Of a DNA stretch of 64,000 bases, positions 2,669 through 60,450 are shown in pieces. The stretch lies in the NCBI RefSeq assembly GCF_042453785.1, contig NC_091667.1, positions 34,650,001 through 34,714,000 of the forward strand, in the 5' to 3' direction. A model generated the notes under the pieces. It saw nothing but the letters and a program-made list of their open reading frames with translations, did not search any database and was not told where the DNA came from. Made by a program: the position numbers and the translations under genes. Position 1 is the stretch's first letter. The number at the start of each line of letters is the position of its first letter. This stretch comes from Malus domestica. Its lineage: Eukaryota; Streptophyta; Magnoliopsida; Rosales; Rosaceae.

Positions 2669-2796
2669 ACAGTCCCAGGACTCTTCACTTCACCAACACT
2701 CTCTTTTTATTTTCTTAATCTCTTGGATTCTGCTGAAATATTTGAAGCCTTTTATTCAACTTCTTGCTCTCAGATCTCTCAAGCTCCACAGATAAA

Positions 2797-3561
2797 ATGA
2801 AGGTAATTGGGTTTTTACTTTGCTGCAAAGCTAGTTCTTTTTGCAGACAACTTTTTTAGGTGATTCTTTTTACATAAAAGATATGCATGCATGACTGATG
2901 CTGCTACTTTTGATCTTTGCTTTATTTTTTCTGACTATAATTTGGTGCGAGTCTCAACTATACTATTTTGTTTCATGACAGAAAGTAGTGTTGAAATTGG
3001 AAGTATACAACGAGAAGTCTAAGAAGAAAGCCATGAAGGCCGTGTCGGGGCTTGAAGGTACTAAATCCATGGCCATATTACTCTCTTGTTCAACATTTTA
3101 CTCCGATTTCAATAGTTTTTCGAATTAGCAGACTTATGCGTAGCCAAGTTAGTTACAGCAGTTTGCTAGTCTCTCAAGTTCGAATCCACATCTATTGAGT
3201 GACGAACTTATTTAATTTTATTTGTTAATGGAATTCTCTTTTTGCAGGGCTTGATTCAATTTCCATGGATATGAAGGACAAGAAGTTGACGGTCACAGGG
3301 GACATAGATCCGGTGGAGTTGGTGGCAAGATTAAGGAAGCTTTACCATACTGAGATACTCTCAGTCGGACCGGCAAAGGAGGAGAAGAAGAAGGAGGAGC
3401 CAAAGAAGGAGGAGCCAAAGAAGGAGCAGCCGAAGAAGAAAGATCCAAAGGACGAATTGGCTGAGATTATGAGGGCCTACCAAGCTCAGTATCCTCCAAT
3501 GCCTACATATTACTGCGTAAGAAGTGCAGAAGAGGATCCCAATTCTTGTGTCATTTGCTGA
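2797..3561 (+). CDS. Heavy-metal-associated isoprenylated plant protein (HIPP-like), metal site lost
   Basis: The gene has three coding exons: 2797-2802, 2982-3057 and 3248-3561, all with GT/AG borders. The product is about 131 residues. An HMA (ferredoxin-like) fold covers roughly residues 1-70, with the pattern KKVVLKLEV...[11 protein letters not shown]...KKLTVTGD...[10 protein letters not shown] Lys/Glu/Pro-rich linker follows, with repeated KKEEP units, and the protein ends in CVIC, a CaaX box for farnesylation. The loop that normally carries M-x-C-x-x-C reads VYNEKSKKK, so the two metal-binding cysteines are missing. Such CaaX proteins act at membranes or in the nucleus, and cysteine-less members may work as protein-binding rather than metal-binding modules. 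The tiny first exon (two codons) is typical of this family. It corresponds to the At5g52760-52770 group in Arabidopsis and has W-boxes upstream. Confidence 0.85.
3145..3225 (+). repeat. Possible tRNA-derived SINE fragment in HIPP intron 2
   Basis: The stretch contains GTTCGAATCC, which fits a Pol III B box, preceded at about the expected distance by an A-box-like tract (agttagttacagcagt). It is short and has no clear tail, so it may be a decayed SINE or chance. Confidence 0.25.
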
Positions 3562-3739
3562 ATGGTTGGTAAAATTTTATTGACATGCATGGTGTTTTTC
3601 AAGAGGAGAAATCAGATGTACAGTACTACAGCGGGTAAAATTCGATAGAGTAATATGTGGTTGGTGTTGGTTTTCTATGATCGAGAAGTCTCTGGTATTT
3701 TTGATGTACTATTTTGTATTTTTCTTTTGGTGTGGCCGC

Positions 3740-6691: not shown

Positions 6692-7321
6692 ATTATTGGT
6701 AGAGCAAGTTGATTGAAAGCACTATTCTATAAAAGATGGTGATCGGTGAGTCTGACTATTCTATAAAGAATAAAAGATGGTGACTGGTCAGGTTCTATCA
6801 CATGAAGGTGAGGAGTTTTAAATTTTTTTTAATAACTTGGCTCAAAACGACGTCGTTTGGCCAAGTTATTTAAAAGAAAAATTAGTTTTCTTCTTCTCCT
6901 TCTGTTTTGCACAGCTTGCAGCAACCATGACTGCTGTTCTTCTCCACTACTGCCTAGATTTGGGTGGTCCTTGAAGATCCTCATAGTCATTTATCCAAGC
7001 TTCCGGGTGGTCCTGGAATCACCCTGGTCCCTTAATAGATCCGCCCCTCCACAGCCTTCAATTAAATTGAAGTTAAATGAATAGAAAGAAGAATGTAAAA
7101 ACTGTGCAAACCATCACATACTCACGTTAACATATATACATATGAGAAGTTTAATTTTAGCACAATGCAATGTTAGGGAGATTAAATTTGTAGATAATAC
7201 TTTTGAAAATTAAATGACATGAAAGTTGATGGTTGAATTATTACTTAAACGTTGATTAACATGCTCATTTTTTTTATGACACATCATTTTTTTAGCATTA
7301 AACTTTTTAACATGACTGTCA

Positions 7322-7324
7322 TAT

Positions 7325-7366
<42 letters not shown>
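7322..7366. repeat. (TA)n microsatellite
   Basis: A run of about 20 TA dinucleotides in intergenic DNA, likely length-polymorphic. Confidence 0.9.
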
Positions 7367-7368
<2 letters not shown>

Positions 7369-7585
7369 ACTAAGTTATTTATGTGATAGTACGTGCAAAT
7401 TTATTTTCAAATAATGCATATAAATTTATGGCACATCATTCTAATTTTATAACAAGTGAATCAATAATATCGTGTAATCGACACACTCATAAATTTACGT
7501 TAAGAGAATAAGGGGAAAACAAAAACTAACTAATGGTGCTTGAAGCTATGGTAACCAAAATCTATCAATTTAATTACTTAAACCA

Positions 7586-8080
7586 TCATTTTTTACTGTT
7601 ATTACTCTCGTCTTCCTTTCTCCACATTTCAACCCAATTGCTTTGAGCTTCTTCCAATCCAAGAACTGAACCCTTCTTCTCTGCATCCCAACTTGTAGAC
7701 AATGCCCCATACGCAATCCCAAGGGCCGATGTCCCAAAAGTCAACAAGGTCGTGAAGAATGGTAGCCAAAGCGGCACGTCCCACCAGTGGTTCTCCTTCA
7801 CCGCGTCAAAAATTTTCAAAAACGCAAAGCCCGTGGCCAAAGGCAGCCCCACGGCGGCGATAATTCTCACTAGCATTCTCTCGAAAACGACCTGCGGAAC
7901 TTCCTCGTCGCCATCGTTGTTATCATTTTTGTCGGAGTTTTTGCTTGTCGGCGTTTCTTTTGTGGTGGCTGGTTGCACACTGCCAAAGCCTTTTGCATTT
8001 GCATGTGTTTTGTACGTACTTCTTTTAGGGTGGTGTTTGGACCCGATTTTTGCGTTAAATTTTTTTGGCAAGGCAGACAA
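7586..8080 (-). CDS. PAM68L: PAM68-like chloroplast membrane protein (PAM68L), 3' part of an interrupted gene
   Basis: The open frame codes for 164 residues. An acidic stretch (DGDEE, about 55-60) leads into the family core VPQVVFERML (61-70), a first membrane span (about 71-91), a WDVPLWLPF loop, a second span (about 103-126) and the C-terminal signature STSWDAEKKGSVLGLEEA...NWVEMW (129-153). PAM68-family (DUF3464) proteins are thylakoid assembly factors; PAM68L (At5g52780) is known for NDH complex assembly, and PAM68 itself for photosystem II. This sequence looks closer to PAM68L. Only codons from about residue 16 on are host sequence (7586-8033); the first 15 codons read into LTR sequence. 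The true N-terminus, with a transit-peptide look, is at 10400-10511. The gene is therefore split by the element at 8034-10399 and is probably not expressed as a normal plastid protein, unless the insert is spliced out. Confidence 0.85.
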   Translation of the reverse strand: MSALPKKFNAKIGSKHHPKRSTYKTHANAKGFGSVQPATTKETPTSKNSDKNDNNDGDEEVPQVVFERMLVRIIAAVGLPLATGFAFLKIFDAVKENHWWDVPLWLPFFTTLLTFGTSALGIAYGALSTSWDAEKKGSVLGLEEAQSNWVEMWRKEDESNNSKK

Positions 8081-8584
8081 GTAGGATCATGCTGATCGAG
8101 CAGATTTGACTACTGCGAAAACATTATATGCTGCAAGCATTTTGGCGTGCAGTGTGCAGTCGGCGTCAGGCCAATGCATGTGATTATGCATAAGAATTCG
8201 GCCAAGAACCATTAGGCCGAAGTCGAAGGTAGAAAAGTCGAGGAAAGTGGGTTGAAAATTAAGATCAATAAATACCTTTAACCCTCAAGTTATGGTTCGG
8301 TCGCCATTTGGTTTACCTTTAATCGACCTTTCGATGTAAGAGTAGGTGACTTTTCTCATCTGGCCGAGAAAAGTGGATTGAAACCACTTTCCCTGACAAG
8401 ATTCCACCCTCCCTTTATTTTACAATAGTTGAATCGTGGGCAGTGGTTTGGTGAAGCAGAAAAGATTTGATGTGACTCAAACATGGTACTATCGTGACCC
8501 ATATATATATATGTATAAAGGCATGCCGACGTCATAGACTTTCCTCGGCCACTTTACAAAACTGCATATATAAGCCTTGGCCAA

Positions 8585-8636
<52 letters not shown>

Positions 8637-10399
8637 CTTGGACGTGAAGTTTTGAGTTTTTTGAGGAACTAAGCGGTCGAGGGATTAGATGGTAAACATG
8701 TGGATGTGACTACGAAAAAGTGCCAGTCAACAGAGTATTATCTCAGCGCCATGATGTTCACTGTTGCTGTATTCTTTCTGCTTGCCTTCGTTCTGAGCTT
8801 CTCGACCTCGGCTTAGTGTATATATATCTAGGCAGGACGAGTTGCCAAGAAAAATTCTTCTCGACCCTCTGGTAAAATTGCCGAGCCTGGTATGGAGTTG
8901 TAGTAGTCGAAGGAGGCCGCAACGTTGGCAGAACATACATGTTATTATCGAGGAACAAAGTTTTTTTCGGTGATACGAACAATTAATTTCCTTAACCTTT
9001 CGGCTTACGAGCCGAAGTTCAAGGAAACTGGGGGGGGGGGGCAATGTTTGGACCCGATTTTATACCATCGGCCCAAGCGATCGAGGCCGTTGGGTAAGCA
9101 TGGTTCTTAATCGTCGGATAAAAAGTTAAGATAATTTGCTATTGTTAAGAGATAATATTATGGTTCTTAATCATAATAATTATCTTTTAATAAATTATCT
9201 TAATTTTCTTATACAAGATAAATTATACAAATTCTTGGACTCTTCACATGGCCTAACATGGATCTGCAAGCCGAAGATAATGGTGAATAGGAAATCCAAT
9301 AAGGTTAGGTGATGGATGTCAGCTTGGTATCTAGTTGGCTGCATGGGGTCTATGGTTGAATGGACTCGCGTACAAAGCCATGTGGAACAATGGAAAAGAT
9401 TTTACATGTGGTGGTGATAAGGTGGCAATACAATTGATCAGAATTGTTAGGATACGTGGTCTCCATGTATGCATGGGTAACTTGCAAATGGGATGAATTT
9501 GAATTGCAATTGGATAGGCATCTGCAATGTGTGGGGGATACGGATTCTTGAGAGAAGTAAGGTGATTATTTTGGGAAGTGAACTATCTTTCCAATTAATT
9601 ATCTTTCCAATTAATATGTTAAGATAATGATACAAATTGGAGCACGGCATTGACACTTTGACTAAGGCGAAGTGATATTATCAAAGGGTTTTTATCACAA
9701 TATCCGGATGTAGAAGAGTTAGAGTGGAACTGGGAAAATCTATTTCGGCGACTGAGCATTAAGAACTTTATAAATACAAGGCTTCGAACGCTGAGAAAAG
9801 ACCTCCAATGCAACACACAAAACTGTCATGCGCAAACCCTCTCAACAACTTTGAGATTTTTATTTTCTTTTTTCGCTGACACATCTTCCGTTGGCATCAA
9901 CAGCACTGTGGAAGCAACCGGTGATATCTTAAGTCGGCATAGATAGCTCTGTCACCGTAGAATCAATCGGTCTCACAGTATCTTCCGTTGGCATCAACAG
10001 CACTGCGGCGAGAACGGTTGATTACCTATCCAAGTCTCGGTCGAGAAGGGTTTCTGAATCCTTATTGGTCGAGGTCATCTCATCAGCCTTCTCGGCAAAG
10101 TGAGGTGTTACAAGTTATTACATTCGGCACATTGAAAGCCGAATTTGATATTGAACTTCGTAAGAATAGTAACCTTGTCTTCAGGTTCGAGAGCTCAAGA
10201 GGCCGAGACGTGTTCCTTTCTCGGCCGCAATCGCAAGACGTAGAAGTCAGCCGCGCACCCAACGCAACATCAACAAATTTACTCCTCGGCCGAGCTCGGC
10301 CGACGAGTTGGCACGCCCCGCAATCACCGAAGAACGTAGTTAGCTTATAGATTACTCGGTCTGCACGCCACGTAGGCTTTGTAGTTTCTAGGGTCAACA
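8034..10399 (+). mobile_element. LTR-retrotransposon fossil inside the PAM68-like gene
   Basis: The left end starts TGTTTGGACCCGATTTT, and the same 17 bases recur at 9045 directly after a G-rich polypurine tract (about 9027-9044), where the right LTR begins. The element ends in ...GGTCAACA. Five-base flanks (GGTGG at 8029-8033, TGTGG at 10400-10404) fit an LTR-element target duplication with one mismatch. The interior (about 1 kb) shows no gag or pol, is rich in TCGGCC-like motifs and holds a (TA)n tract at 8590-8632. The element is broken and much reduced, with the left LTR present only in small part. Superfamily is uncertain (Ty3-like is a guess). Confidence 0.75.
9045..10399 (+). repeat. 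Right LTR (about 1.36 kb)
   Basis: The LTR begins TGTTTGG straight after a polypurine tract and ends CAACA at the border with the PAM68-like gene. Inside it a 'cttccgttggcatcaacagcactg' unit is repeated at about 9885 and 9980 (quoted in short form: ttggcatcaacagcact). The open frames it contains (for example 9988-10350) look like LTR sequence and have no family match that I can see. Confidence 0.7.
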
Positions 10400-10511
10400 T
10401 GTGGCTTTGGTTCTGCAAGGTTTTGGGGTGGAAGGTTAGGGTTTTGGGCTTCCATGGCGACGAGCTTGAAGGAGAGAGAGATGGTTGGGAGGAAAAAATC
10501 AGAGTTTTCAT
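10400..10511 (-). pseudogene. PAM68L: Displaced transit-peptide end of the PAM68-like gene
   Basis: From an ATG at 10511 the minus strand reads 37 residues rich in Ser, Thr, Pro and Lys (MKTLIFSSQPSLSP...TLQNQSH), a typical chloroplast transit peptide. At 10400 host sequence stops at the LTR border. Counting one copy of the target duplication, His37 here is followed in frame by Pro18 of the reading frame at 7586-8080, giving a host protein of about 184 residues before insertion, close to the size of Arabidopsis PAM68L as I recall it. This in-frame fit at both borders is the main evidence that the two fragments were one exon. Confidence 0.8.
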
Positions 10512-13500
10512 GGCTTGGGCTAGGTTACTTCTTTATAACGTTAAAGTTAAGTTGTATGGTCTTATTGCTATAAACCTTATCACAAATGAATGGTGGTGAC
10601 ATGGTCTCTGGAGATATTTTGTGATTTATTTTGAGATTTTTAATTAGTCGTACATCTTTTTTACGTCCTAAACATCTTTATTAATTTTAGTCCTTTGTTC
10701 TTGATCAATTTATTCAATCCAACGGTCAAAAATTAAAAAGTGTGTGAAAAACAAAAATGAGTGTGCACTACCTTTTTAATTTTCTGATCACCAAATTAAG
10801 CTAGGATAATTTGTTCTATACTAAACAAGCAAAACTCATAATAAAGTGAGAAAGGAACCAAATTAGTAAATCACAACTTGACCTACTTGTGCTCTTGCAA
10901 ACGACGTACACTAACGGTCGTTTTATAACTATTTCGTTTTTAGATTTTAGTTTTACTTTTTGTGCTTGATATAGGTGACGACAAAAATTTATAAGAAAAA
11001 TGATGGATGAGGAATCGTGATGTGAGGGAGGGGAAGAATGAATGAAAACAAAATCTAAAAAATGAAAAACAACTTAAAATGTCAATCCATAATACTTCTA
11101 CAACTCTGCTTCTGATATGAAGAAACTCAACCTACTTAATTATGATGTCAATCCATAATACTTCCTAGTTTAACTTCATATCGTGTAGTACTACTGGAGA
11201 GAAATGTCTACCTTGAGATGTTTTGTGATTTATATAGTACTAATGTTGTTTCTGTTTTTAAATTTTAGGTTCGGTTTTCACTCTCTCAATTCTAAGACCA
11301 AGTTGATTCGAAAATTATTCGTCAAAACAACCAAGTAAGAAATATATGATATCGGATTGAGAAATGAAGAGGCGAACATAATCCATGTGGGACAGCCAAA
11401 GCGTGCATACGAGCGTATAAGCAAAACTCACAGTGAGTCAAAGCGATTGTGTCCCAAAGGTCCTGATCCACGGCATCACTAGCTCATCAATCAACCAAAG
11501 AGGAGAGAAACTTCCTTACCAAAGTGTCATTTTCCGTTCTTCTTAATTATTTTTCGCCTCATGAGACCAGAATATATAAAAGTATTTTCTTTTGAACTCC
11601 ACAATATATAGAAGTGGTTGGTACTTAAAAATTGTGTATTCGATAAAATGGTATGAACAATATTACATATTAAGATCAATTTCTGGTTGATAAGATCCAA
11701 TTTTGAAGTTGGACCCCTACTCAATCTGTAGAGAAAGTGGTCCCTATAAACCAGATGAGTTGGGATTATAGGTAGTGATAATCAAAACCCTTTTTTTATC
11801 TTCCACACGGAGAAGATATTTCATATATAAAGTAATATTTGGTATAAATTTAGTATATTATATCTAATTATATTTCTTTATACAGCGTATTTTGCTATAT
11901 AGTTCCAATCTATCTTTTTAGTTCACATCATTATCTTTTTAATTTGAGTAATTTTATTCTTACCCCAATTTTATACCACATTTATTTACCATCTTAGGTA
12001 GCAAATGAGTTGGACATACCACATCATTTAATTTCAATTTTCTTATTAATTAAAACACTTAAATAAAGAAAATTGCAGACTTCAAGTCTCCTCCCATTGG
12101 CATTAATAACTTAATTGGGTATGAACCCTAATCTGGTAAACAAATTTGATTTTGACTCCTAATTCTCATGAAAGCTAATATACGTTATTCAATGAAATAA
12201 TAAGATGAAATCCTACTTTTAAACCACAATTTTTTTTTTTGAAAAGAAGACAAAAAAAAAAATCACAAGATGAAGCGGAATGAGGACTGGGCTACGGGGC
12301 ATGAGTCTGAAGATAGAAATCAATATATGGTGATTGTAGTATACGAGTGAATTCTATAAAACTTGATCATAATCATGGAAATCAACATAAATTAATATAA
12401 AAAAACTGGCGTAAAAAAGAAAGGGAAAGGAAGAAGAAGAATTGAAAGGGGAAGGAAGAAGGGGACTCCTCGTATACTATAATCATTATTTAATTAATCA
12501 TCTTTTTATTAGTTATTGATTAATTAAATAGTTTTTAATGGAAATTAAATGTTAATTAATTTAAATAATGTGGTTATTTAGATGTCACCTAAGATAATAT
12601 ACAATTATGGTACAAAAACATGATAAGAATAGCATTTGTAGACCTATCTTGGAGTTTATCCAAACTAAACGGAACATAGCTAAGATACCAAACCCCTTTT
12701 TTGTAGTAAAACGACGTTGTCTCATCGTCAATGTTAGGTAGGTCAGATTGAATCTTTCTTCCATGCGGAGTAATTTGGGCGCTTCTGCAACCAAGCGGCA
12801 GCCGTGACACCATTTTTTTCCGATCAATATTAGCTAATTTACCTTGTGTTTGGGCATCCAAATCATGAAAATTTCGGAAAGCTGCCCAGCCTTCATTCAA
12901 GCATTTTGTCGAACAATTTCCGTGCAGGCCAAGACGGGCGGCCCCTCCTTGTCCTGCTGTAGCTCTGCTTGTGGCCCCATCCTTCAAATAAATTGAAGAT
13001 TACAATGGAGGCTGATTATCTGCCCTCTCACTTTCCGTGCCCTCTTATTTATGTAGTAATGGTTATATTACGTCAACATTTTATATTACTATTTTTTTAT
13101 TTTATTATCTCTATAAAAAATAATATAAAATGTTCATATGACTGAACCTTGATCACACAAAACAAAAGGACACGAGAGGGCACAGGAAGTGGGTGGGCAG
13201 ACAACCTGCTTCCGATTACAATTCCTCGAACGTAACAAAAAATATACAACCTGAACAGGGCTAACATTTGATCGAAATCAGATTAGGTAATTTAGGTATG
13301 TTTTGCCTTCATACATATCTTGAAGTATATTCCGAAGTTTATTTTTGGGCCATCAACAAATTAAAAAGATAATATTCTTGGCATTTTTATGTTTCAAAGT
13401 TCAAACTGAGAGTGATTAATAATTAGGTAGTGTTATTCACACGTTTTTTTAATCTTCTATACACTCTTTGTTAATTTTAGTTAATTAAATAATCATCTTC

Positions 13501-28495: not shown

Positions 28496-29593
28496 CTAAT
28501 TTTGTTGCTGGATATAGGTTTCATACACCAACTGAGCTGCAAGAATATCCACAACTGCAGAACCAACGGACTTGAACACAGTAATCTCCTCGCAACTTGT
28601 TCTCCCGACCTTGTCTCCGTTGATCAACTCCACCAACATTCCGCAAACATCCGCCTTCTCCATCACCCCTCTCTCGAAAGCACCCACCAGCTCCCCCGCC
28701 TCCTCCAGCGCCGCCTCATTGTCCACGAAAACCCTCCCTCTCCTCACCGCCTCATCGTCACATTCCTTCATGGAATGCTTGAAAGATCCAACCAAGTCCA
28801 AATGTGCCCCCGCCTTCAGCTTCTCCCCCTTCACAAGCGCCGCCTCCGAATTGGTGGCGCAGCTCACAATGTCTCCCATCCCAACCGCCTCATCCAAACA
28901 CCCATCGCTCTCAAAACAAACCCCATCAAACTCCGCACATTCTCTCATTTTCTCAGCCAAAATTTCCGCCTTCTCCGCGTTCCGGTTCCATATGATCACC
29001 CTCTTCAAGCTCGGCCGTGCCACTAAATGAGCTCTGATCAAATGCGGCGCCATAGCGCCCGCACCGATCATAACCAGAATTCCGCTGTCGTTTCGGGATA
29101 AAATCCTCGAAGCTAAGCCTGAAACGCAGGAGGTTCTGTAAAGGGTGAGGGCGGTGCCGTCGATGGTGGCGAGGGTTTGGCCGGTGGCAGAGCTGAAGAG
29201 CACATAACTTGCGTGCACTCCGGGTAAGTTTATGGTGGAGTTTCCGGGGAAGTAGGTGACGAGCTTGACGCCCAAGTAGGGGAGAGAAGGGGAGGAGGAC
29301 CAGGAGGGCATGAGGAGGAGAGAGGAGGAGGGCGAAACGTCGTAGCTTTGGCGGATTGGGGATTGCAGAGAAGCTGAGACGGCGGGTAGGGAAGATTGGA
29401 AATGGTTGATTAGGGTTTGGTGAGAGAGGATGGAGTGTAGAGACTCGGCAGTGACGGTGATTGGGGATGTTATGGTGGTGGTGGTGGTTGATTTGGCGGC
29501 GGAAGCCATTGATAGCAGGGTTGAGAGCTTGGGAGGCTTTGGTGTGAGTCTGAGAGAAGAGGGAAAGATATGAGAAGAATGGTTTGAGATCAT
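28496..29593 (-). CDS. SARD4: SARD4: ornithine cyclodeaminase / mu-crystallin family reductase of pipecolate synthesis
   Basis: A single-exon frame of 365 residues. The core follows SARD4 throughout: SPIRQSYDVSPSSSLLLMPSW (79-99, read in two parts), LGVKLVTYFPGN (107-118), TGQTLATIDGTALTLYRT, the Rossmann motif GAGAMAPH (177-184), IIWNRNAEKA, SCATNSEAALVKG, GSFKHSMKECDDEAV and GRTSCEEITVFKSVGSAVVD. In Arabidopsis SARD4 (At5g52810) reduces the dehydropipecolate made by ALD1 to pipecolic acid in plastids, a step towards N-hydroxypipecolate and systemic acquired resistance. Two starts are possible. The ATG at 29593 adds a Ser/Pro/Lys-rich 28-residue leader that could be a transit peptide. The internal ATG at 29509 (MASAAKS) has the better context. 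No introns, as in the family. Confidence 0.93.
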   Translation of the reverse strand: MISNHSSHIFPSSLRLTPKPPKLSTLLSMASAAKSTTTTTITSPITVTAESLHSILSHQTLINHFQSSLPAVSASLQSPIRQSYDVSPSSSLLLMPSWSSSPSLPYLGVKLVTYFPGNSTINLPGVHASYVLFSSATGQTLATIDGTALTLYRTSCVSGLASRILSRNDSGILVMIGAGAMAPHLIRAHLVARPSLKRVIIWNRNAEKAEILAEKMRECAEFDGVCFESDGCLDEAVGMGDIVSCATNSEAALVKGEKLKAGAHLDLVGSFKHSMKECDDEAVRRGRVFVDNEAALEEAGELVGAFERGVMEKADVCGMLVELINGDKVGRTSCEEITVFKSVGSAVVDILAAQLVYETYIQQQN

Positions 29594-30009: not shown

Positions 30010-32219
30010 TTGTTGAATGGAAGATGATATCATTAACTTAGGAAAATTACAAAGTGTCTTGGATAAGGAGGTCCAGAATAACAATAGGAGGGTCCTCAAC
30101 CCAAACCACCCTTGTATCAATGGACAATGCTACCTTTGCCAAACAATGAGCAATACTATTATTATTCCTAGAAACAAAAATAAACTTAGAAGCAGTAAAC
30201 AAATATGCACTACGAAGGACATCCCCCGCTAACAAGTCCATAGCCAACGCACGATCCACACAAGTGTTCATAATGGAAATTGCTTGGGAGGAGTCACTAT
30301 GAACTAGAACCTTCTGATAGACAAGCTGTAGGGCGAGGTCCACCCCATGCTTGATCGCAAGCATTTCTGCTTGAAGGGCCGAATACACCATAGGGAGGAA
30401 ACAAGCCTCTGCTGCCAGAAAGGAACCTTGTCCGTCCCTTAGCACTGCCCCGGCCCTACCCACCCTTACCTCTAATTTGGTTGCTCCATCCACATGCAAC
30501 CGTGCCCAGTTCTCATCCACCCCCTCCAGTACCGAAGCACCCCTAACCATATGCTCATCTCGAGTATAACGTTGTGGAACGCCATTGCTAAGATTCGCCA
30601 CACCCTGGAACTCTTGCAACCATGCCACCACACGCTGGGCCACCACGGCTGGCGACCCGAGCTTTCCCTTCCAAGTTCTATCATTTCGCTCCTGCCACAA
30701 CTGCCAGACTACCATGCACATAAAATCAAAGTCCAAATGGTGATTCTGAAGAAGAGTGAAGAACCATTCTTTAACCGATCCACAAGGTATTGAATCAACA
30801 AGAAAACTACACGGAGTTGCGAACCATGTAGCTCTTGCAAAGGGACAATCTTTTAGAACATGCACCACCGTCTCTGATTCTTCATTACAAAGAACACACA
30901 ACAAATCCGAATTAACTCCTTTCTTAGACAAATTATCTTTTGTCGGGAGAATATCTTGACATGTCCGCCATACCATATTCCGCACTTTCAGCTGGACCTT
31001 GGCCTTCCATATTGCTTTCCATAACGGAGTAAATGGATTACCTCCCGAAGTTGAAGACGAAGCACTCAAAGATGATGGTTTGATCAAGTCCCAAACCACC
31101 CCATAAGCGCTATTAACCATAAAATGGCCCATGTCAGTGTAGTGCCATATTAGCTTATCCGGAGGAAGACAAACGCTAATTGGAAGTGTACGAATGTGCT
31201 CCCTGTCCTCATCTTCAAAATACTCCAACAATGCAGCTTCACACCATGTTCTTCTCTCCCCATCAATCAGGTCCTGCACCAACATATCCTCCCCGCGAGG
31301 GAGGCGGCCTAGAGATGGGACGAAAAGTCGATGGTCTAGGTACCCACCGATCCTTCCACACCCGTACTGACGCCCCATCACATATCAGCCATCTCGAACC
31401 CTTCTCCAAGACTAGTCTAGCTTTGAGTATACTAGACCAACAGTAAGATGAAGATGAGGGAATCGGAGCTTCCCAAAACGATGTATGGGGAAAATATTTT
31501 GCCTTAAACAACCTTGCAGTCAATGACTTTGGATACTGAATACGCCAACCCTGCTTCGCCAATATCTCCAAATTAAAGGCATAAAGATTTCGGAACCCCA
31601 TACCACCTTCCAGTTTAGCCAAACACAACCTATCCCATGACTTCCAATGAACTTTCCTTGAGTCCGGATCACTACCCCACCAAAACCGAGCCATGACCTT
31701 ATGGAGATCATCACAAAAAGTCTTCGGAAGCAAGAAACAATTCATAGCATATGTAAGCAAAGCCTGAGCCACCACCTTTACAAGCAACTCCTGTCCTGCT
31801 TCACTCAAACACTTCCCTTTCCACCCACTCAGTCTCTTATGAACTCTTTCCTTAATATAAGCAAAAGTTTGCCGTTTATTCCTACCCACAAAAGTAGGCA
31901 GGCCCAAATATCGTTCATGTCGCTCCACTAATTGAACTCCCAAAAAATTTGCCAACCCGTGCTGCTCTCTGCCATCCACATTAGCACTAAAAGCAATGCT
32001 ACTCTTCCCCAAGTTTATTTGTTGCCTTGACGCTTAGGAGAACACATCCAAAATATGTTGAATCTCAGCACACTTTTCCAACTTGGCCTTACCAAATAAG
32101 AAACTATCATCGGCAAACAACAAATGATGGATACTAGGAGCCCCCTCAGAAACCCGAATCCCACTAATCACTCCTCGTTGCTCTTTATGAGCAATGAGCG
32201 CTGACAAACCCTCAATGCA
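30010..32219 (-). mobile_element. 5'-truncated L1-type LINE
   Basis: An 11-bp target duplication AAGGTGCATTT flanks the copy (29999-30009 and 32220-32230). On the minus strand it reads the C-terminal half of a LINE ORF2: a reverse-transcriptase part with the catalytic-type FADD (32034-32219), an intermediate domain (31263-32012), then a zinc-binding zf-RVT region (CVLCNEESETVVHVLKDC) and a complete RNase H (HVDGATKLEVRVG ... HSDSSQAISI) in 30047-31381. The first two parts share a frame but are separated by a stop (32034-32036). One frameshift lies near 31,300. The 5' end, with endonuclease and ORF1, is absent, so the copy cannot move. Confidence 0.9.
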
Positions 32220-57684: not shown

Positions 57685-60450
57685 CTACATCGTCAACAGG
57701 CTAACATTTTCGTCCATGCAATCCTTATGCTGCAAATTACCTGCACCCTTACACGAGCACTCACCCTTGTTGAAGATATGCAACCGGTTCCCGTCCCTCA
57801 CAATGATCTCGCGATCAACAAATTGAGTTACAAGCGTTATAAAGCTATGGCATTCGCCGCATATGCGCACATTCTTAGACACGCGTATGGAGGCGTTACG
57901 CGGTGTTTTGAGAAGACCGAATGCAACAGCTAACTTCTCAATGTGATACGATGAATCTTCGTAGTCTTGATATGAGTATCCTCTCTTCTTCAACTCCGTA
58001 ATAAGTGACTTTACCTTCTCATGGATTTCATTTATCTGTGGATGTGATCGATCTCCTGCATCGAAGAGATGAACCCTGTTCCTTATTTCCATCCAGCACT
58101 GCCCGACATTCTTCTTCAATCCCCTCTCCCTCATTGCTTGTCGTGTACTTTTGGCTAAATCCGGCTGACCAGAATCATCATACAAACTTGCAAGCAGCAC
58201 GTAAAAAGCTGGATCAGACGGGTCAAGTTCCATCCCTCGCCTCGCTGTATATTCCCCGAGGGAAATGTTTTTATGTAACTTGCAGGCAGCCAATAGTGTC
58301 TTGTAAATTAAGGCATCTGGCTTAAAGGGCATGGTCATGATCGCTTCCATGGCATCCTCTAGTCGCCCGGCTCTGCCAAGGAGATCAACTAAACAGGAAT
58401 AGTGATCCAGTTGTGGAGCTATATCATACTTTTCTCTCATTGACTGAAAATGCTCAAGACCTAGTTCAACCAAACCGCCATGGCTGCAAGCGAAAAGCAC
58501 CAACAGGAATGTAATGGAATCAGGTTTAAAACCTGCCAACCTCATATTGTCAAAGGAAGAGAGAGCGGATGAAATATATCCACTCGATGCCAATCCAGAA
58601 ATCAAGCAGTTCCATGACACTATATCCGGCTCAGAGATCTCACTGAAAGCTCTGTGTGCATCATCTCTGCACCCACATTTCCCATATAAGTCTACTAAGG
58701 CATTCAAAACTGATATCCCACTGCCTAAACCGGCTTTGATAGAATAGCAATGAAGTTGCTTCCCAGTTTCCATTGATGCCAAGCCAGCTGATGCAGATAA
58801 GAAGCTTGCAAGGCTAAACCGATCCATCATAACGTCATCAGTCTGCATACGGGTGATGAGATCCAGTGCAATTTCATAATTACCTAGCTGATTCATTCGT
58901 GTGGCTAAACCTGTATACGTGATAGCATCTCGATGGATCATGGAGTTAATCACATGCCACGCATCATCCACCATCCCCAGCGCAGCATAAGCATCCACAA
59001 GAGCATTCCCAACAGCTATATCACTGCCCGCTTTGGTTTTAACTATACGTCCATGGATTTTTTGTGTCTGACTAAGAGATTTAACAGTACTGCAGGCACG
59101 AAGAATGCTAGAGAAAGTAAAGGAATTTGGCTCGACTCCTACTGTTCGCATCTCCAGAAAATACTGAAAAGAATCTTGTTCAAAACCGTGTTCAGCAAAA
59201 CCGGCAATCAATGAAGTCCAAGTGATGACACTCGGCGATGTTATCTCCCTAAACGCTCTCAAACCATCTTCTATGAGGTCAGAACATTTCAAGTACATAT
59301 CAACTAGTGCACCTCCTGCACAAGTATCATCCTCCAATCCAGCCTTGAGCACCTGCAAATGGATCTGCTTTCCTAATTCCAGTGACAAAACCGCTGAGCA
59401 AGCTTTCAGCATACTAGAGTATGTAAAATTATTTGGTACAATTCCAGAGAGCTCCATCTTGTGCAATGCAGCAACAGCGTCCGCGACTCTCAAACTTTGA
59501 GTGAAGCCAGAAATAACAGAGGTCCACAACAACACATCATATTCAGGTGTTTGATTCAACACCTTGATAGCATCTTCCATCTTCTGGCATTTCGAGTACA
59601 TATTGACCATGGCCGTCTTCAAGACCAGATTCAGCCTCATTCCGAATCTTATCAAATGGGCATGTAGTAATTTCCCATAGTTCAAACCAAGAGAGCAGGA
59701 TGCAGCGAAAAGTTTTACGAAAGTGAACTCATTTGGATGAACCCTAGCAGCATATATCATATCTATGTAGTAGCCTAGAGCCTGTCTCCATTTCTGAGCT
59801 TGGACCAATGAAGAGATGATTGCAGTCCAAGAAACAGTATCACCACTCTCCATATCCCTAAATATCTTACAAGCCTCTTCGGTTAAACCACACTTGGCAT
59901 ACAAATCAATCATACTGCTGCCAAGAAATTGATTTGGCTCGAATCCAAGCTTGATCACAAATGTATGGATTCGAGTCCCATAATCCAACTCTCCCAACAA
60001 CGAGCACGATTTTAAGACACTTGAGAGTGTAAACTCATTGGGGCACTGACCGGAAACAATCATCGAATCAAAGAATTCAAGCGAGTCATGATAGTGTCCG
60101 TTCCTGACATACGCGGACAGCATCCCTGTCCATGACACAACATCTCTGCGAGGCATTTCATCGAACAAGTGGCGTGCAGACTCAACTCCAGAGCATTTTG
60201 CATAGAGAGACAGCAGGTTGTTGGTTAAGTAGAGGTCATCGTCAAGACCCAGTTTGGTAATTGGGCTGTGCACACAGATGCCCTCCGGCAGGGACTGTGA
60301 GTTGCATGCTGAAAGAACCCGGAGGCAAGTTTCTTTGAAACAGTTAACTTCATTTGTGTTGACAACGAACCTGGTGATTTTTGCTATAGACATCAAATTC
60401 ACAACCTTTTTGTATGGTTGAATTTGAGAGATTAAAAGATTAAACACCAC
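57685..60450 (-). CDS. PLS-class PPR protein with a degenerate DYW-type end (At5g52850-like)
   Basis: A single-exon frame of 921 residues. The start at 60450 is the first ATG; an internal one (MSIAKITRF, residue 20) also gives a plausible organelle leader. About 19 PPR-type units run from residue 55 to 700 (for example LYAKCSGVESARHLFDEM, YLKCSDLIEDGLRAF, LYGKCGCRDDAHRAF), followed by E-type motifs (HYSCLVDLLGRAGRLEDAMEA) and a DYW-like end with HIEKLAVAFGLL and CGECHSFITL. The final motif is GECSCKGAGN... rather than ...CSCxDYW. DYW proteins deaminate cytidines in organelle RNA; At5g52850 is the matching Arabidopsis gene and is predicted plastid-targeted. Whether the altered end retains activity is unknown. 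Neighbour of the complex I gene, as in Arabidopsis. Confidence 0.92.
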   Translation of the reverse strand: MVFNLLISQIQPYKKVVNLMSIAKITRFVVNTNEVNCFKETCLRVLSACNSQSLPEGICVHSPITKLGLDDDLYLTNNLLSLYAKCSGVESARHLFDEMPRRDVVSWTGMLSAYVRNGHYHDSLEFFDSMIVSGQCPNEFTLSSVLKSCSLLGELDYGTRIHTFVIKLGFEPNQFLGSSMIDLYAKCGLTEEACKIFRDMESGDTVSWTAIISSLVQAQKWRQALGYYIDMIYAARVHPNEFTFVKLFAASCSLGLNYGKLLHAHLIRFGMRLNLVLKTAMVNMYSKCQKMEDAIKVLNQTPEYDVLLWTSVISGFTQSLRVADAVAALHKMELSGIVPNNFTYSSMLKACSAVLSLELGKQIHLQVLKAGLEDDTCAGGALVDMYLKCSDLIEDGLRAFREITSPSVITWTSLIAGFAEHGFEQDSFQYFLEMRTVGVEPNSFTFSSILRACSTVKSLSQTQKIHGRIVKTKAGSDIAVGNALVDAYAALGMVDDAWHVINSMIHRDAITYTGLATRMNQLGNYEIALDLITRMQTDDVMMDRFSLASFLSASAGLASMETGKQLHCYSIKAGLGSGISVLNALVDLYGKCGCRDDAHRAFSEISEPDIVSWNCLISGLASSGYISSALSSFDNMRLAGFKPDSITFLLVLFACSHGGLVELGLEHFQSMREKYDIAPQLDHYSCLVDLLGRAGRLEDAMEAIMTMPFKPDALIYKTLLAACKLHKNISLGEYTARRGMELDPSDPAFYVLLASLYDDSGQPDLAKSTRQAMRERGLKKNVGQCWMEIRNRVHLFDAGDRSHPQINEIHEKVKSLITELKKRGYSYQDYEDSSYHIEKLAVAFGLLKTPRNASIRVSKNVRICGECHSFITLVTQFVDREIIVRDGNRLHIFNKGECSCKGAGNLQHKDCMDENVSLLTM

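Follow-up and report, generated by a model that had tools for sequence, protein, structure and literature searches.

An interrupted PAM68-family gene and its intact homoeolog

The analyzed window, 64,000 nucleotides of the apple genome (C7:34650001-34714000), contains a PAM68-family gene on the minus strand that is interrupted by a 2,366-base remnant of an LTR element at 8034-10399. Unless a contig is named, positions are those of the window (Table 1). The larger host fragment, the core, matches PF11947 (DUF3464, Photosynthesis affected mutant 68) with an E value of 1.6e-41 and 141.9 bits (frame 7586-8080), against a Pfam gathering cut-off of 25. The gene's stop codon occupies 7586-7588; its ATG lies at 10511, at the start of an N-terminal fragment spanning 10400-10511. 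Dropping one copy of the 5-base target site places both host fragments in a single frame, as the initial annotation had proposed. The first 40 residues of this joined frame include 13 serines or threonines and no aspartate or glutamate, and the N-terminus thus appears transit-peptide-like, as judged from composition only. Two hydrophobic spans in the core are typical of the PAM68 family, and two are present here, with Kyte-Doolittle windows of 19 residues exceeding 1.3 starting at residues 81-96 and 122-125. A PDB search returned no match at E values up to 1, and Rfam gave none at gathering scores across 7000-11000.

Table 1. Features of the interrupted gene and the inserted element (window positions)
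Feature	Position	Strand	Basis
3' part of broken coding sequence: rest of N-terminal region and PF11947 membrane core	7586..8033	-	frames, Pfam
Left target-site duplication copy, GGTGG, same as the C1 empty site	8029..8033	.	sequence
Left LTR remnant, first 17 bases TGTTTGGACCCGATTTT	8034..8050	+	repeat of right LTR start
3' internal part of element, with G-run just before right LTR	8051..9044	+	deletion joins to left LTR remnant
Complete right LTR, 1355 bases, TGTTTGG...TCAACA	9045..10399	+	full-length copies elsewhere
142-aa frame from the gene's ATG into antisense LTR, no Pfam match	10083..10511	-	ORF list, Pfam
Right target-site duplication copy, TGTGG, one mismatch to GGTGG	10400..10404	.	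sequence
5' part of broken PAM68L-like coding sequence: ATG and transit-peptide-like N-terminus	10405..10511	-	sequence; C1 comparison

Searches of the same genome covered 651,096,769 bases in 19 contigs. With the core as query, two places were retrieved, the core itself and C1:30260605-30261052 at 92% identity. The C1 copy is an uninterrupted frame of 184 amino acids without an intron (L003:4606-5160, minus strand; 137.6 bits to PF11947) and carries an empty site, reading GGTGG, at the position corresponding to the insertion. The joined C7 flanks, with one target-site copy omitted, and the C1 coding sequence are 555 nucleotides each and align without an indel; positions 10401-10631 are 89% identical to C1. 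Fragments would be expected to meet in frame by chance in one case out of three. This explanation is ruled out because the C1 homoeolog has the identical joined layout. The same copy includes the counterpart of 10400-10511 and so rules out the alternative, raised at the outset, that this fragment belongs to another gene.

A genome-wide PF11947 search, in which all seven candidates were scored, found three places: C6 (172.4 bits), C7, and C1. The C6 gene, whose ATG region and core are apparently separated by an intron (read by eye), is different from the C7/C1 pair and is probably PAM68 itself. The sole intact PAM68L-like copy found by this search is that on C1, which supplies the second copy that the initial annotation had predicted.

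The assignment to PAM68L draws on gene order. According to PMC11589868 and PMC4623695, PAM68L in Arabidopsis corresponds to At5g52780, and NDH is missing from its mutant. By Pfam annotation, the window encodes, in order, an ornithine-cyclodeaminase (OCD)-like protein, a WRKY protein, a complex I NDUFA5-type protein, and a PPR-DYW protein. Ranked by locus number, the Arabidopsis genes are At5g52810 (OCD-like), At5g52830 (WRKY27), At5g52840 (complex I B13), and At5g52850; the last is named in the gene table only as a trichome protein, and we take it to be a PPR gene. The PF11947 core and the order of OCD-like, WRKY, B13-type, and PPR neighbors are thus common to the two loci; unlike Arabidopsis PAM68L, the gene on C7 is interrupted by an LTR element, and the likeness rests on family and gene order. 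The Arabidopsis-like order from At5g52780 to At5g52850 agrees with the split gene being PAM68L rather than PAM68. Judged by titles and the opening of abstracts, articles on PAM68 in apple held nothing on the present locus, and other literature listings, by title, held nothing on it either; a search pairing PAM68 with retrotransposon found no article.

The window and C1:30.255-30.337 Mb are collinear apart from gaps and some off-diagonal repeat matches. Given this collinear block on another chromosome, the PAM68L-like genes of C7 and C1 are a duplicate pair from whole-genome duplication. Loci on apple Chr01 and Chr07 are named homoeologous in PMC8558331, and the C7 and C1 of this assembly likewise carry collinear genes. 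When the neighboring proteins were compared by tblastn with C1:30.200-30.366 Mb, those of the WRKY and NDUFA5 genes were found. The OCD-like protein (28496-29593; PF02423, an open frame of 365 amino acids) had no match at 1e-5 in that interval, and the PPR-DYW protein (57685-60450, an open frame of 921 amino acids) matched only in short pieces within 0.9 kb (~30333075-30333940). From these matches, the homoeologs seem to have lost different genes, with loss in both directions within the block.

Two further observations concern repeats. A stretch matching 2700-3729 is present three times on C1 (L008, L009, and L003; C1:30245154-30256817), which is a local duplication on the homoeolog. Within the window, 30047-32012 holds two long minus-strand frames of 444 and 249 amino acids that, by eye, look like the remains of a LINE reverse transcriptase/RNase H.

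The inserted LTR element and its missing left part

The initial annotation described the element as beginning with the first 17 bases of its right LTR and ending in CA, and both observations hold. The 17-base sequence TGTTTGGACCCGATTTT recurs at 9045-9061, and the right LTR ends in TCAACA at 10399. With this LTR as query, the best 40 of 3,400 first-look candidates were scored. Besides the window, five of these copies match all 1,355 bases at 86-95% and share the terminal six bases, so the TG...CA ends recur at other loci. One more copy aligns as two segments (1-280 and 348-1355), and in 33 a good match is confined to the last ~580-660 bases, ten of these having an extra short match at the start. 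Whole-length matches, which take in 9045-9800, are seen in six of the 40 scored copies, the window included. The division into whole-length and 3'-end matches suggests an LTR subfamily whose 5' part has been exchanged or rearranged. The surroundings of the full-length copies support the LTR ends and a 5-base duplication as read from sequence: one copy (L024) has GATGC at either side, another (L027) lies between CACCC and CACTC, similar, internal-looking sequence follows L025 and L026, and a purine-rich tract precedes L028.

The 5-base target duplication reported earlier is present, although it is not perfect: four of the five bases match, and the C1 empty site has one copy. This single mismatch counts against the reading, set out below, of a knock-out by insertion. 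The G-run immediately before 9045 orients the element with the plus strand and hence antisense to the gene. No frame of at least 120 amino acids occurs within 8051-9044, and the gag/pol genes of an autonomous LTR retrotransposon were not found in the element.

That an LTR element separates the host fragments is likewise borne out, with the qualification that only the right LTR is complete; the left is represented by 17 identical bases, and perhaps ~2.9 kb has been deleted. The left part and internal region (8034-9044) were used as a second query, for which the best 40 of 274 candidates were scored. Among these, matches were obtained at C1:29767152-29768138 (95%), C6:18267179-18268061 (93%), and C7:2160956-2161942 (87%), and all three internal-region relatives that match from the left side begin at query base 16. 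The relative at C1:29.77 Mb extends ~1.6 kb farther left before its own left LTR is reached, which ends at L053:1760. Because the three relatives match only from base 16 and the one on C1 continues farther left, the shortness of the left LTR is attributed to a deletion. If the window element was once like the C1 relative, its losses would amount to ~1.3 kb of the left LTR and ~1.6 kb of the internal region. The window's deletion junction is absent from all 40 scored relatives of the internal part. The sequence across this point is GATTTTA in the LTR, GATTTGCG in the relative, and GATTTTTGCG in the window. A slip or a short-homology join is possible but not proved, because no more than TT, next to a T run, overlaps strictly. 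A second, nested or tandem left LTR is excluded, since the left 17 bases enter internal sequence that relatives carry without them. The C1 relative itself (L044/L053, C1:29767149-29769722) has just ~2.6 kb of internal region between its LTRs and from this may be non-autonomous too.

The arrangement shares with other gene disruptions by plant LTR retroelements the TG...CA ends, a 5-base target duplication, a G-run at the right LTR, and membership in a many-copy family. It differs from the usual case in that a deletion has reduced the left LTR to 17 bases.

Age of the insertion and fate of the C7 copy

Comparison of left and right LTRs cannot date the insertion with just 17 identical bases, and two other measures were used. 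Across six aligned LTR copies (1,319 columns), the window LTR has 16 private substitutions, all of them transitions; its terminal branch in FastTree measures 0.024. Over the whole coding sequence, C7 and C1 are separated by 25 synonymous changes (dS 0.238) and 21 nonsynonymous ones (dN 0.051), counted pairwise and unpolarised. From residue 41 onward, there are 24 synonymous and 12 nonsynonymous changes (dS 0.313, dN 0.036, dN/dS 0.116), in contrast to one and nine in the first 40 residues (ratio 2.98, from small counts). The core has therefore been under constraint, unlike the start. Halving the dS values gives 0.12-0.16 synonymous changes per lineage since duplication. Set against this figure, the LTR branch would place the insertion at ~15-20% of the age of the C7/C1 pair, which is to be read as a rough maximum, since part of the branch predates the insertion and mutation may be quicker in LTRs than in genes. 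The dN/dS and undiminished Pfam score of the core, together with the short LTR branch, point to a fairly recent insertion.

Only about the first 37 residues of the 142-aa frame that begins at the gene's ATG lie outside antisense LTR, which is read for ~105 codons before a stop. Past the insert, the core first offers an in-frame ATG at residue 89 of the joined frame, immediately ahead of the first membrane span. Because the ATG-side frame stops within the LTR and no in-frame ATG precedes residue 89 in the core, loss of function of the C7 copy is likely, though not proved. An LTR promoter driving the core is unlikely, as the element reads away from the core and antisense to the gene. The core has no stop, frameshift, or loss of Pfam score (141.5 bits, no worse than the 137.6 of the intact C1 protein), an integrity that counts against a knock-out and would also fit a copy in use.

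The insertion with its near-perfect target duplication and missing left part is seen directly, as are the intact homoeolog and the collinear block. The most economical history is a PAM68L-type copy from whole-genome duplication that was very probably knocked out by a fairly recent antisense LTR insertion, with a later or concurrent deletion, while the C1 copy stayed intact. Under this history, whole-genome duplication would have given two PAM68L-type copies, encoding a chloroplast NDH-complex assembly factor, on C7 and C1. An LTR retroelement would then have inserted antisense after 107 coding bases, counted from the ATG with one target-site copy assigned to the core. A deletion, at insertion or afterwards, would have taken the bulk of the left LTR together with the internal sequence next to it, and the C1 copy would presumably carry the function alone. 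For the present assembly, the insertion and the intact C1 homoeolog support the original proposal of a natural knock-out backed by a second copy.

One alternative is compatible with this knock-out: the insertion may be one segregating allele, the assembly showing the inserted haplotype. The young appearance of the element (from the LTR branch), the undecayed core (dN/dS, Pfam score), and the fact that the insertion is known from one assembly all fit this possibility, which we hold at somewhat below even chances. A different outcome, that the element is spliced out or partly exonised and the gene still yields an altered, working protein, is improbable, although both host fragments are open and in frame. 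A splice scan found 53 donor/acceptor pairs that keep an open frame into the core. The best, which pairs a donor of moderate strength at 10173 with a weak acceptor at 7979, would give 243 amino acids containing the core minus about its first 18 residues. When the insert was shuffled, the mean was 13.8 pairs; three of 200 shuffles reached 53 (197 fell short), and 11 of 200 reached the score of the best pair. The scan is crude, with a rough matrix and shuffles that preserve single-base composition only, and the excess of pairs probably stems from the 142-aa open frame into the LTR. The excess nonetheless counts against a simple knock-out and keeps some spliced product conceivable. Opposing this outcome, splice signals close to the edges of the element are weak: no donor in the gene fragment or in the element's first 150 bases scores above -0.36, and the best pair has an acceptor at -0.63. 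The C1 gene, moreover, has no intron. Misjoining of element sequence into the gene during assembly is very improbable: a single assembly is the basis here, but the two junctions coincide with LTR family ends, the target duplication agrees in four of five bases, and C1 has the exact empty site, a pattern that a misjoin is not expected to produce.

Implications for duplicate-gene loss in apple

The knock-out reading describes a clear but ordinary loss of a duplicate gene by transposon, a usual route in duplicated plant genes. It offers a clean example in which a transposon removes one member of a duplicate pair and the empty site is preserved on the partner chromosome. For annotators, the two C7 fragments represent one broken gene. 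PMC11965797, one section of which names apple/pear in its title, reports unusually high retention of duplicates after four ancient polyploidies, and a recent duplicate loss is of some use because of that reported retention. Since C1 seems to have lost or wrecked its OCD-like and PPR genes in the same block, the two homoeologs may perhaps be mutually dependent. More tentatively, the insertion could be young and still segregating, such that some trees have one working PAM68L copy and others two; if so, apple would be a tree crop with naturally graded dosage for chloroplast NDH and for cyclic electron flow.
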